From the IMG/VR virus record IMGVR_UViG_3300030098_003519, positions 25,494-89,493 of that record: a stretch of DNA of 64,000 bases, one strand, 5' to 3'. Within the stretch, counting starts at the first letter, position 1; each line of letters begins with the position of its first letter. The position numbers and the translations under genes were made by a program. The notes beneath the pieces were generated by a model, which saw only the letters and a program-made list of their open reading frames with translations, did no database searches and was not told the origin of the DNA. Origin of the DNA: a virus. Positions 1,669 to 60,150 of the stretch are shown piece after piece.

Positions 1669-4600
1669 TTACTTAAATTCATCTGGTACTACTACATCAT
1701 CAGTTCCATTCAAATTCTCAACAGTTCTTGCTGGTTCAAGAATAAGATTACCATCATTATCAGTAAGATCACTTGATTTAATAATATCATCTTGCCTTTC
1801 ACCAACAACCATCCAAGAAACAGTATCAGTACAACTATTATCTTGAGCAGTAATAGTTAAAGTGTTTCCAGAAACAGTACCTTTAACATTAGTCCATCCA
1901 GTTTCATTAGTTGTGAAACATTGTATATCTCTATTTAATGCGACAAAGGTTCCAGCACTCATGCCAACCTTAGTATCAATATTAACGGTAGCAGTACCAC
2001 CAACAAGATCAACTTTACCACGATAAATGTTATCACATTGTGGACCTTCAATAAATGAGTGTACTAAATCTTTTGTAGTTGAAAGACCAACAAGAGGATG
2101 AGGAATCTTAAATGATCCACTACCTTTAGATATTGAACCAGTAATAGAAAGATTATTGGAGATCTGAACTCTATGGAATTTACGATAATCATTAGAATAA
2201 TAAGAGTTTGGAGGATTAGCATTAGTCAAATCCCATCTTATATTAGAACCAGGAATGATATCAATACTTGCATTAGGTGGTGATGCATCACTATTTCTCA
2301 TTCTTCCAACAGTTGCAGCATTTGTCCCTACAGTGAAGTCACTGTTTATAGTAACAGATTCACCATAAATCATTCTATATCTGAAATCATGGTTCCAATC
2401 ATAACCATGAAATCTTATCCATACATCTTGATTACTATCAACAACAAGTTGAACAACAGATTTTTCTGCCGTCTGTTGATCATGACATATACTCATACTA
2501 GAGTTGGCATACTTTAAAACTTCAATTGTTCCCCTAACAGAACGTGGATAGTTAGTATCACCAGTAGCCATATATTCAAGGTATGCAAGACCAGAACTTC
2601 CTACATTTTTAACTAACTTAATCCAATAGTAATCCATAGCAGGAGATTTACTGGTATTATAATCAAAACAACTTGTTGTATACCAAGGAGTACCAGCTAT
2701 TATCTGATGTCCCATAGAATCTGATAAAATAGTTGTACTATCAACAATAGATACACCAAAACCAACATTATTACCAGATAACATCAATTGACCAGTATTA
2801 TTGATGCGAACTCTTTCAGATCCATCTACTTGTAAAGATATATTTGATCCACCTCCACTAGAAGCATTTCCAGCATCACATCTAATTTTTAGATTGTCAC
2901 CATTACTTTCGATAATACTTTGTCCATGAGTACCATCAGTGTCTTCCATGCATACGGCAGGAACACCACCTTTCAGGTGAATCATATAATCTGGATTAGT
3001 TTCTCCGATACCAAGTCTCCTATTAACACCATCAAAAGTTGCTATAGGATAACCACCACCATAAATTTGAGTATGTCTAATAGTAGAAGTTCCTGTTGAT
3101 CCAAGTCTTGCTGCATATGTACCACCAGACCAACTAAAAGAAGCATATGAAACAAGAGGATGAGTATCTATTTTATAAGAAGTACCACCTACTATTGCAA
3201 TATTTCCACCATTAACCTGAAATTTTTCTGCTGGATTTGTAATTCCGATACCAACATAACCTGTATCTCCTACGCAACGAAGTCTTTCATTTGAATTTAC
3301 AACAAGTCTCAAGTCATCTTCAATTGCATCAATATTTGTTTGTGTTCCTCTAACAACATTATTTCTAAAAATTAAACGAGAACGATTAACTCCATAACAA
3401 TCAAGAGTCAATGCACTATTTCCTGATGCCCTTGCAACAGATAATTGACTACCAGAAGCAGGTGTTCCGATACCAACTAGACCACTACCACTGATGGCAA
3501 GTCTTTTTAGACTAGTAGTTCCATCTGATGTCCATATATTATAGTAAGAATCTAATAATGTTGCACCACTAGGAGTATCTGTAGAACCTGTAGCAATATT
3601 TGATCCTGTAAAATATCCATTAGTAACATCAGCAAAACAAGAAGTAGAACTATATCCTTCTCTATACTTTACCCATATTTCAGCACTTTTGGCAGAACTA
3701 TCATACTTATGAGCAACTCCAGCAATACCTTCACGAACAGCAGTTGTACTATAAAAATAACCATATAAAGTAGGGTTGGAAGAGAATGCTAAATGAATCT
3801 TTGTTTCACCAGAAACATTACTATTAGAATCATGAGTTGCTGCTCCAAGAACTGTTATCGTTGCCCTTGCTGCAGCATCAACACCTACACCAGCCCAAGT
3901 ACCAACCTTAAACCATTTACCAGGATCATTAGAATTTGCTTCTGTACCGCCTACAGTTCCACGAGTAAATTTGGTTCCTCCATCAGATGCAATTCTAAGT
4001 CTTTCTGCTACACCAACCCCAGATGCATTTGTTTTAAGTACTAATGAAGAACCACCAGAAAGATAAGGAGCAATTGATGCTTCACCAGCATCAGTTACAG
4101 ACATATCAATTACACCATTCTGACTAGGACTTAGTATTCCAAAAGTTCCTTTAAGATTTAATGTTCTTGTACTTGAATCAGTAGTGGCTATCATTACATT
4201 GCCACCTGCAGGTTGAATTGCCAAGTGTCTAGCACCATCTCCACTATGTCTAGCTTGCATAAAATAAGGATGTGGTGAAGAGTTAGAAAGTCCAAATACT
4301 AATTCAGATCCTTCACACCTAAGAGTATGTCCACCTGTTGCATTCCAAGTTACTGATGGAGCAAAAGTACTTGCATATTTTGCAACTAATCCTGCATCAG
4401 TTTGTGGATCTGTTATACCAATACCAACCGAACCACCCATAGGGTTTAAAGTTATTTGTCTAAGACCACTACCACTTGTATTTGCTTGTATAAACAATGC
4501 ATAAGGGGCATATGCAGTCAATCCAAATTTTAATTCGGATCCTTCATTCCTGAATATCTGACCTGGATTACCACCACCCCAAGTTAAAGTTGGAGTAGAT

Positions 4601-57323: not shown

Positions 57324-58244
57324 TTAGGAGTTAACTAACTTTGAGAAGTAACTAAGAGAATCATCTTCCTCTTCTTCAGTTGACTCTGCTACAGGATCAG
57401 GTACTACTGGTACTGGAGCAGGTGCTCGTGATGCAGTTTCATAAGAACCACGATCATCATCTTCACTACTCAACTCTTCATCAACTACAGGTCTTTTGAC
57501 TGGCTGATTCAGACCAAGAACATACTTCAGACGCTTATCAAGATCTTCATATGACTTGAACTTGTCTGGTGCAGTAAACTCATTTAGGTCATACTCTTGA
57601 CCATAAATTGTTTCTAGTTTTGCATCATCATCAAAGAGAGCACTTGGAGAATCGAACTCTGACTTATCATAGTTCTGATAACCTTCTACTCTACGGATCT
57701 TCAATTTGAAGTTTGCACCCTGCCAAAAATCGAATGGATTAATTGGAGTCTCATCTGCGAACTCAGGTTTCATTGCTTCCTGAATCTTATCAAAGATCTT
57801 CTTGCCATACTTGTACAAGAATACTTTACCTTCGTTCTCAGGATTTGAAGGATCTGCAACAATGAATATGTTGCTGTAATAAGATAATCTACGCTTCTGC
57901 TTCCTTGCTATTTCTTTGTTAGCATCAGAACCAGAGTTCCACAGTTGTGAGTTGTGCTCAGAGACAGGATCCTTCTGTCCCAATGTGGTTAGAGAATTTT
58001 CTATGAACCAACCACCAGGCCCTTGGAATGCGTGAGTGTATACTCTTGCCCAAGGAAGTTCATTACCTTCTGGTTCTGGAAGGAAACGAATGATTGCATA
58101 ACCATTTCCAGATTTGTCAACGGATGGTTTCCAAATACGTTCATCAACGTTGCTTCCCTTGTCGTTGAGTTTCTCAACTTGTTTAATTAACTTATCAGTA
58201 AGGGAACCTGATCTGGACTTTTTCTTTAGATTTGCGAATGACAT
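57324..58244 (-). CDS. 32: Single-stranded DNA-binding protein gp32
   Basis: The 306-aa protein follows T4 gp32: an N-terminal basic LAST-like motif ('LKKKSRSGSL'), an OB core with 'GYAIIRFLPEPEG', 'WFIENSLTTLGQKDPVSEHN', 'SYYSNIFIVADP', 'VFLYKYGKKIFDKI', 'NFKLKIRRVEGYQNYDKSEF', and an acidic C-terminal tail ('EEEEDDSLSYFSKL'). The zinc-site cysteines of T4 gp32 are absent; the protein has no Cys at all. It coats ssDNA in replication and recombination and loads gp59/gp41. It has a long structured leader and no clear Shine-Dalgarno before the ATG. Confidence 0.97.
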   Translation of the reverse strand: MSFANLKKKSRSGSLTDKLIKQVEKLNDKGSNVDERIWKPSVDKSGNGYAIIRFLPEPEGNELPWARVYTHAFQGPGGWFIENSLTTLGQKDPVSEHNSQLWNSGSDANKEIARKQKRRLSYYSNIFIVADPSNPENEGKVFLYKYGKKIFDKIQEAMKPEFADETPINPFDFWQGANFKLKIRRVEGYQNYDKSEFDSPSALFDDDAKLETIYGQEYDLNEFTAPDKFKSYEDLDKRLKYVLGLNQPVKRPVVDEELSSEDDDRGSYETASRAPAPVPVVPDPVAESTEEEEDDSLSYFSKLVNS

Positions 58245-58471
58245 GTGGATGTTTGAGGATTAATTGAAAAAAGGGTGGGAGGTTGGAATTATGTGTACCA
58301 ACAAGTAAGGGGCATTGCTACATGAGTAGATTTTTACCTCACTGTCTGAGACCCGACTGGTAAGTCGATTCACCTTTTCAAGGTGCAGCACCACCTGTGT
58401 CTCATCACCTTAACTAGCCTTATGCCAGCAAGTTTATTCAGTCACTCCCGTGTTGAACCCGTCGATTCAAC
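58245..58471 (-). ncRNA. Structured 5' leader of gp32 mRNA (candidate cis-regulatory RNA)
   Basis: From a predicted start near 58471 to the gp32 ATG lie about 226 non-coding bases with several perfect stems: GTTGAA/TTCAAC (58452-58457 with 58466-58471), outer TGAGAC/GTCTCA (58347-58352 with 58399-58404) enclosing CGACT/AGTCG and CACCTT/AAGGTG. The AAGGTG arm can pair instead with CACCT at 58392-58396, so two mutually exclusive hairpins exist. T4 gene 32 is known to be autoregulated by a leader pseudoknot. I did not recognise a known riboswitch family. Confidence 0.55.
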
Positions 58472-58477
58472 AGATAT

Positions 58478-58506
58478 ATTATATACCAGTATTATTTATT
58501 TGTCAA
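58478..58506 (-). promoter_or_regulatory. Consensus sigma70 promoter for gp32
   Basis: Minus-strand TTGACA (58506-58501), a 17-base spacer, and TATAAT (58483-58478), matching both boxes exactly. This suits early transcription by the host RNA polymerase. A plus-strand late box begins only five bases beyond. Confidence 0.9.
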
Positions 58507-58539: not shown

Positions 58540-60150
58540 ATGGTCGCTAGAATACCTCTGATTGTAAATTCGTCTGCAGAACAGATACAAGAACTGCCTA
58601 GTGGAGATTCCATTAATATACCTGGTGATCTTAATGTCACTGGTACCGTTACTGGAAGTGCTCTCCACTCAGTAAAATTAACTGCTGATGGTACTATTGC
58701 TGCTAATGCTGCTGTGACTTTAACCAGTGCTGGAAAAGCTAAAGCAATTTCAACTGTAGCAGAATCTACTGGTTCATCTTCAACTTTCTACACACATACT
58801 GCGGATCTTCATGTAGGTGCAATAGATGATATAACTTTTGATTCCAATCAAAGTGCTGCACTGCTAGTTTACCGACGAGATAACGATGCAGGATCTCAGT
58901 TGCCATCATATCAGTTTACATCAGGAGCATTATCTGGTACTTCTATTACATGGAGTGGTACTCATACACCACTAAATTCTACATCTGATTCCAGTTCTGT
59001 AATCCAACCTAATGTTATTTCACATCAGAATGGAGGTGGTGTTGCAATTCATGTACCATCATCGACTGTTGGTACTACTAACCGTGACTTGAAATATACA
59101 ACTTTTACTCTTAGTGGTTCCACTGTAACATGGGGTACTGCTACTCCCATATCTGCTTGGGTTAGCAACGTGAATTTACCAGACAGACATTATTGTGTTT
59201 ATTTGGGAGAAGATGGGGGTTCTCACTACTTTGCTGTTGCTTATCGCAGTGGATGGTTAGGAGGTTCAATGGTTGGAAAGCTAAGGATTCTCAAGTGGGA
59301 TGGTCAGGATAATGTAACTTTAGGTAGTGAGGCTGACATAGGTAGTCCTACGAGTGATCCTGGTCACAGACTACTTATCGATCCACAATTAATTGCACTT
59401 GAAAATAGAAGATTTCTCGTAAAAAATGGTGCAACCTGGAGAGTATGTACTAGAGTAGGTACAACAGACGTGAGACAGGGAGCTGATAGCAGTACCATTG
59501 GTAGTACTACTAACCATAAAATTTACGACCCTTATAGTAAATTCTTAATTTGCTATACTGGTACTGGTATAATTCAGGCCTATGATATTAATGGGGAAGA
59601 TATTACTTACCGTTTTCAATCACAAATGCCTTCAGGTATAGGTAATGGACGAGTTCTACTCACAGATAAAGGTCAAGTTTTACATAGTTACATCGATGGG
59701 TCAAATAATGGTAAACAGATTTTTGGAACATTTAATGATGCAAAAGATGACATAACATGGAATGATGCTGCTACAACTTGGGATAGTGGTGATGCAGATA
59801 ACTCTGGTGGTACACCTAGAACAGTGAAAGCAAATGATGGGAAAGTGATAACTGCTTATCACACAGATCCTGCTAGTGAAGGAGATGAAGACGGAAAATC
59901 AGTTGTAACACAAACAGCAACAACAACACTAACAGAAGATAACTTCTTAGGTTTTAGTTCTGCTGGTTACTCTGATGGAGAGACGGCATCGATAAGTATA
60001 TTAGGAAGTCAATCAACCCAATCAGGTCTTACTGTAGGTAAGAAATATTATGTACAAGATAATGGAACTATTGGCACCAGTAAAGGATGGTTTGGCGTTG
60101 TAGCTGGTAAAGCATTGTCTGCAACAAAATTATTGATTACAGAAGTTTAA
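58540..60150 (+). CDS. Fibre-like virion protein on opposite strand, 536 aa
   Basis: The N-terminus ('AEQIQELPSGDSINIPGDLN', 'VTGTVTGSALHSVKL') is a phage fibre-type opening. The middle has propeller-like strands ('HYFAVAYRSGWLG', 'KIYDPYSKFLICYTGTG', 'GQVLHSYIDGSNNG'). The last 75 residues ('FLGFSSAGYSDGETASI', 'GLTVGKKYYVQDNGTI', 'AGKALSATKLLITEV') form a C-terminal domain frequent in phage fibres. It lies between gp32 and a replication cluster on the other strand, and its stop overlaps the convergent DUF1825 stop by 4 bases. It looks like an inserted late gene. A fibre or adhesin role is inferred. Confidence 0.8.
   Translation: MVARIPLIVNSSAEQIQELPSGDSINIPGDLNVTGTVTGSALHSVKLTADGTIAANAAVTLTSAGKAKAISTVAESTGSSSTFYTHTADLHVGAIDDITFDSNQSAALLVYRRDNDAGSQLPSYQFTSGALSGTSITWSGTHTPLNSTSDSSSVIQPNVISHQNGGGVAIHVPSSTVGTTNRDLKYTTFTLSGSTVTWGTATPISAWVSNVNLPDRHYCVYLGEDGGSHYFAVAYRSGWLGGSMVGKLRILKWDGQDNVTLGSEADIGSPTSDPGHRLLIDPQLIALENRRFLVKNGATWRVCTRVGTTDVRQGADSSTIGSTTNHKIYDPYSKFLICYTGTGIIQAYDINGEDITYRFQSQMPSGIGNGRVLLTDKGQVLHSYIDGSNNGKQIFGTFNDAKDDITWNDAATTWDSGDADNSGGTPRTVKANDGKVITAYHTDPASEGDEDGKSVVTQTATTTLTEDNFLGFSSAGYSDGETASISILGSQSTQSGLTVGKKYYVQDNGTIGTSKGWFGVVAGKALSATKLLITEV

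Follow-up and report, generated by a model that had tools for sequence, protein, structure and literature searches.

The Region Upstream of gp32

The window, a 64,000-nucleotide stretch of a virus record from IMG/VR, carries on its minus strand the gene of the single-stranded DNA-binding protein gp32 and, upstream of it, a sigma70-type promoter matching the consensus at all 12 positions (Table 1). Promoter and gene are separated by a non-coding gap of 227 bases (58245-58471, minus strand), in keeping with the approximately 226 bases given by the first-pass annotation. The same annotation read the gp32 ATG as lacking a clear Shine-Dalgarno sequence, and none is present in the bases that precede it (...CAAUUAAUCCUCAAACAUCCAC-AUG). 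A 536-aa ORF without a PHROG or Pfam match (window positions 58540-60150, plus strand) runs divergently from the gp32 promoter.

Table 1. Features of the gp32 leader region and of the hairpin adjoining manA at other loci.
Feature	Position	Strand	Details
Sigma70-type promoter	58478..58506	-	TTGACA 58506-58501, 17 nt, TATAAT 58483-58478; 12/12 consensus
Predicted +1 of the gp32-side promoter	about 58471	-	from the sigma70-type promoter
manA RNA (Rfam RF01745), full length, model 1-192	58272..58472	-	171 bits, E 8.3e-46
manA 5'-terminal hairpin, starting at about +1	58451..58472	-	Rfam structure; helix 1 covaries
Closing helix, 5' strand GGGAG	58445..58449	-	99.8% paired, compensated
UGGU loop, candidate kissing partner of ACCA 58358-58361	58390..58393	-	helix 7 of the 20-sequence alignment
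manA internal hairpin CACCUU/AAGGUG (arm with two proposed partners)	58371..58385	-	conserved helix, compensatory changes (helix 8 in the 20-sequence, helix 7 in the 89-copy alignment)
ACCA loop, candidate kissing partner of UGGU 58390-58393	58358..58361	-	nearly invariant; helix 7 of the 20-sequence alignment
Closing helix, 3' strand CUCCC	58277..58281	-	partner of GGGAG 58445..58449; 99.8% paired, compensated
Unstructured gp32 leader, manA to AUG; candidate gp32 operator	58245..58271	-	U tract, then UUAAUCC at 58263-58257
gp32, single-stranded DNA-binding protein	57324..58244	-	PHROG 224, E 1.7e-122; Pfam PF08804, E 3e-47
GACCUAAGAUGCA...GGGCAGAUGGUC hairpin	L092:3492-3528, L115:1973-2010(-), L065 near 197-234, about 95 others	as given	adjoins the manA 3' end

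The leader had been described as structured and left without a family, a covariance search against Rfam being the proposed check. That search, run on the whole window against all of Rfam, yields manA as its sole accepted match, across the entire model and far above the gathering threshold of 55.2 bits, and the conserved helices and loop sequences of the family are present in the window copy. The gp32 leader is thus manA RNA, a real structure and a new member of an already described family. A match to snoR35 of 21 bits lies far under its own threshold and was discarded, and the scan gives no match in the window to wcaG or PhotoRC-II. The 89,493-base virus record that contains the window has this one manA only. 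The RNA was described in 2010 and is listed as a candidate riboswitch, as its discoverers proposed (PMC2864571). Its position in the window, in the 5' UTR between promoter and gp32, is that of a cis-regulatory element; this placement is not general in the family, terminators or tRNAs coming next at many loci.

Fold of the Leader RNA

In a folding-energy test the leader folds more favorably than its shuffled versions (z -2.4; 1/200 shuffles). The part of this structure that is conserved corresponds to the manA fold with its covarying helices, which bears out the description of the leader as structured. Covariation of the stems, named in the first-pass annotation as evidence that would support the structure, is extensive. 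An alignment of the window copy with 19 relatives, scored over the Rfam helices and a candidate kissing pair, has 94% paired cells and changes on both sides in 35/58 pairs; 500 shuffles match neither value and slid controls reach 31-46% paired. Among 89 distinct copies 96% of cells are paired and 37/51 pairs are compensated, in an alignment that was fitted to the model and therefore leans towards it. The helix closing the fold illustrates the pattern, GGGAG/CUCCC being replaced by GGGUG/CACCC in P-HM1 and P-RSM1 and by GGAUG/CAUCC in S-CREM1.

The candidate kissing interaction joins the UGGU and ACCA loops. ACCA is present downstream of UGGU in 151/155 manA copies, and because both motifs are nearly invariant, covariation speaks neither for nor against their pairing. 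The drawing of manA in PMC2864571 marks a 'pseudoknot?'.

The arm at 58380-58385 had been proposed to pair either with 58371-58376 or with 58392-58396, forming mutually exclusive hairpins. The first pairing is a conserved helix of manA. The second occurs only in the minimum free energy fold of the window sequence; in relatives it reaches 53.6% paired cells, the level of shuffles, with zero compensatory changes. One of the two partners is retained, and the proposed switch between exclusive hairpins is not, since the other alternative exists in the window sequence alone.

Promoters, Neighbors, and 3' Ends of manA

Two pattern scans of IMG/VR, together with a covariance model built here (R1), provided 155 distinct full-length copies of manA with flanking DNA. 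These copies are related and were selected by pattern, so that the counts below describe this set and not independent samples.

A promoter with at least 10 of the 12 consensus bases lies directly upstream of manA in 145/149 loci, counting those whose upstream flank is long enough, as against 1/137 for a control stretch. Its -10 box usually ends 5-8 nt before the RNA, which therefore begins at about +1. At 67 of these 145 promoters the -35 box is found inside the loop of a terminator-like hairpin (8 in shuffled flanks), so that the manA unit looks insulated from upstream transcription. In such fused terminator/promoter hairpins, for example at loci L008, L089, L138, L169 and in P-RSM1 (L376), the -35 TTGACA occupies the loop, and the U tract of the terminator falls within the spacer that separates it from the -10 box.

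The gene that follows is most often gp32 (31/155), then a member of the transaldolase (talC) family (17), the remainder being distributed among many small families; 124 of the 155 copies thus stand before something other than gp32. A tRNA or tRNA-like gene is found within 70 nt of manA at 13 loci, and at least five more copies abut one. In S-SSM7 the last base of manA is 151563, and the annotated tRNA-Gly begins at 151564. Unusual tRNA-like genes missed by ARAGORN directly follow manA or its 3' hairpin at L094:3764-3834, L123:5685-5755(-), L113, L192, and L265; two of them score about 52 bits with the Rfam tRNA model.

Terminator-like hairpins occur within 160 nt after manA at 47/150 loci, compared to 6/150 in shuffled sequence and 10/133 in a downstream control. 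Altogether a terminator or tRNA comes straight after manA at about 40% of loci, and about 60% of the copies have an ORF close behind or no clear end signal; the window copy has no 3' end signal of its own. Where terminators follow, pairing of the manA 3' end with them shows no excess that would indicate an antiterminator (mean 5.7, versus 5.8 permuted and 6.5 shuffled). The annotated hypothetical proteins PHM2_011 and PHM2_012 of P-HM2 (L200:1620-1794) fall within manA or share bases with it, and neither is likely to be a real gene; small ORFs are likewise annotated over manA in P-HM1, P-SSM4, and S-SSM5.

Many copies have beside their 3' end a conserved hairpin, GACCUAAGAUGCA...GGGCAGAUGGUC, whose internal loop is invariant and which has no match in Rfam. 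When this hairpin was queried alone in IMG/VR, 72 of the 73 new loci carrying it also had manA, with the hairpin at the manA 3' end. Downstream of the hairpin there is a U tract in 39/52 contexts other than gp32 and in 1/20 gp32 contexts (p 5e-8, relatedness ignored), a bias expected if the hairpin ends the RNA unless a gene beyond must be read. It looks like an optional 3' domain of manA that doubles as terminator.

Distribution in Phage Genomes

Exactly one manA is found in each of the 15 cultured phages first examined, and P-TIM40 and P-RSM1, picked since BLAST had shown no manA in them, have one copy each, making the RNA single-copy in 17/17 manA-bearing cultured genomes. IMG/VR records agree, with one manA in 19/20 and two in a 4.7-kb contig. 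This contig (L263) carries copies at 119-315 and 3639-3836, one of them before gp32, and is the sole such record seen. With the model, a single manA is found in each of the 12 Prochlorococcus-infecting phages tested, the two that BLAST had not picked out among them, and ten Synechococcus phages chosen by gp32 similarity have none. Since most of the phages were BLAST-selected, the link to Prochlorococcus hosts is a lead only. An exact-pattern scan of bacterial genomes from 84,980 species matched 2 contigs, one in a Flavobacteriales MAG (L231) and the other in the Prochlorococcus single-cell genome AG-418-C09 (L232); both are probably phage DNA or misbinned.

The site of the single copy differs from phage to phage. 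It lies after gp23 in P-HM1, P-RSM4, S-SSM5, and MED4-213, between regA and purL in P-SSM2, after pstS in P-SSM3 and P-SSM4, before talC in P-RSM6 and P-TIM40, and before gp32 in P-HM2. In P-HM1, P-SSM2, P-RSM6, and S-SSM7 it is far from gp32.

P-HM1 and P-HM2 have gp32 proteins that are 93% identical and share the gp32 promoter TTGTCA-17-TATAAT. In P-HM2 manA is placed between the gp32 start site and the gp32 leader; the corresponding site of P-HM1 is a 48-nt gap without manA, and the only copy of this phage, at 112740-112927 after gp23, has a promoter and a terminator of its own. Mapped on a quick tree of 93 gp32 proteins, the leaders with and without manA call for at least 5 to 7 changes of state. 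The group of 14 that includes the window protein has 6 members with manA and 8 without it, and the close relatives that lack manA retain promoter and leader. Most cyanophage gp32 leaders are without manA.

Repeats in gp32 Leaders

In the leaders without manA the promoter is followed by a short A/C/U-rich stretch with repeated AATCY/UUAAUCC units up to the AUG. AATCY occurs 1.8 times per 45 nt in 38 such leaders, against 0.18 in shuffled sequence and 0.39 in 203 leaders of other ORFs. These repeats, found just before the gp32 AUG across cyanophages (loci L003-L079 and L361-L370), are a candidate gp32 operator. The unstructured tract is kept in the close relatives of the window phage that lack manA; the window leader itself has one UUAAUCC unit only, the T4 unit being UUAAA. 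The T4 gene 32 operator combines a pseudoknot of about 28 nt with UUAAA repeats, the leader having UUAAA/UAAA repeats at the corresponding place, and RB49 retains the repeats and lacks the pseudoknot (PMC535899). If gp32 is autogenously regulated in the window phage, the tract between manA and the AUG is more likely to be responsible and is a better candidate than manA.

Function of manA

The likeliest interpretation is that T4-like cyanophages carry manA as an autonomous non-coding RNA gene, lodged here in the gp32 leader; we draw this reading from sequence comparison and give it a probability of about 50%. As would be expected of such a gene, the RNA has its own promoter at its 5' end. The insulation of this promoter, the single copy per genome, the unrelated neighbors, the frequency of terminators and tRNAs, and the lack of a visible expression platform fit a non-coding RNA better than a switch of the downstream gene. 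The varied neighbors and the difference in site between close relatives give the reading its weight; the single-copy argument taken alone is weak, since a riboswitch present once in a phage genome would not be exceptional. On the other side, the roughly 60% of copies with a close ORF or no clear end signal also fit a cis element, and gp32 and talC recur beyond what chance placement might give.

Transcription from the strong insulated promoter would begin where the compact fold of about 190 nt begins. The RNA would be ended by a terminator at some loci and may be released by RNase P where a tRNA abuts. In the window phage it would be left as the 5' leader of the gp32 mRNA, with the gp32 promoter on one side and the short unstructured leader on the other. 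It would act mainly in trans, with a possible secondary role as a folded 5' end of the gp32 mRNA and a presumed effect on gp32. At slightly less than even odds we extend the proposal to a single-copy trans-acting RNA gene that is present in all Prochlorococcus-infecting T4-like phages tested, moves between sites, sometimes carries the conserved 3' hairpin domain, and, on landing in the leader of gp32, stays joined to that gene's mRNA.

The foremost alternative is that manA senses a metabolite, or otherwise acts in cis, to regulate whatever gene comes next, here gp32. This is the proposal of the discoverers (PMC2864571), and it accommodates the complex conserved fold and the usual proximity to an ORF start (the AUG lies at +24 to +84 in gp32 loci). 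A coherent set of regulated genes is not what is found, however: one copy per genome stands before unrelated targets that comprise gp32, talC, many small families, tRNAs, terminators, and sites after gp23. The gp32 site has no visible expression platform, with no terminator, no Shine-Dalgarno to hide, and an A/C/U-rich spacer, and antiterminator complementarity is absent where terminators follow at other loci. P-HM1 does without manA at a gp32 gene that is nearly the same and has a matching promoter. The first-pass annotation had suggested an autogenous control RNA or riboswitch, either new or analogous to a known one; its conserved structured RNA stands, and the neighbors and 3' ends of manA make a riboswitch rather unlikely.

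manA could instead be a generic 5' protective fold that shields phage transcripts from degradation by RNase E or by other routes. Its nearly constant position at +1, its 5'-terminal hairpin, and its indifference to the downstream gene would suit such a role, which is improbable given a fold and sequence conserved far beyond the needs of a simple 5' stem, one copy only per genome, and a terminator that often comes next and leaves no mRNA to stabilize.

That manA forms the structured part of a T4-type autogenous gp32 operator in the window lineage, an analogy raised as a possibility in the first-pass annotation, is very improbable: the order of folded 5' element, unstructured repeats, and start codon resembles T4 (PMC535899) and gp32 is the commonest neighbor, but 80% of the copies are elsewhere, many before tRNAs or terminators, the RNA is not specific to gp32 leaders as the pseudoknot of a T4-type operator would be, and most of these leaders, including those of close relatives, lack it.

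If manA is a separate RNA and not a switch, effort spent on finding its ligand would be misplaced, and a target would have to be sought through which this conserved phage RNA acts on Prochlorococcus. P-HM1 and P-HM2 form a natural pair without and with manA at gp32, so that the cis and trans ideas are directly testable in cultured phages. The literature covered, which included the main text of PMC2864571, gave no account of the gp32 association, of one copy per genome at differing sites, of the 3' hairpin domain, or of the tRNA abutment. It likewise yielded no ligand or function of manA and no transcript evidence at the gp32 site of P-HM2.

Relation to Known Systems

The window RNA resembles manA RF01745 as described in its full-length match, with the same helices and conserved loops, its cyanophage origin, and its 5' UTR position. 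The downstream gene classes published in the main text of PMC2864571 do not include gp32, whereas gp32 is the commonest neighbor here, and the evidence assembled here favors an autonomous RNA present once per genome over an element acting in cis. wcaG and PhotoRC-II came out of the same survey as manA and are likewise structured RNAs from marine cyanophages; they are other Rfam families, tied to particular gene classes. The gene 32 operator of T4 and RB69 shares with the window a gp32 leader in which a folded 5' part gives way to an unstructured stretch before the AUG, made of U/A-rich repeats in T4 and RB69 and holding a single UUAAUCC unit in the window phage. It differs in that manA is about 200 nt long, precedes many other genes, and is absent from most cyanophage gp32 leaders. 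T4 also encodes the stable RNAs C and D, which resemble manA as small phage RNAs without an assigned function and have their genes near those of tRNAs; manA differs in not being confined to tRNA clusters.
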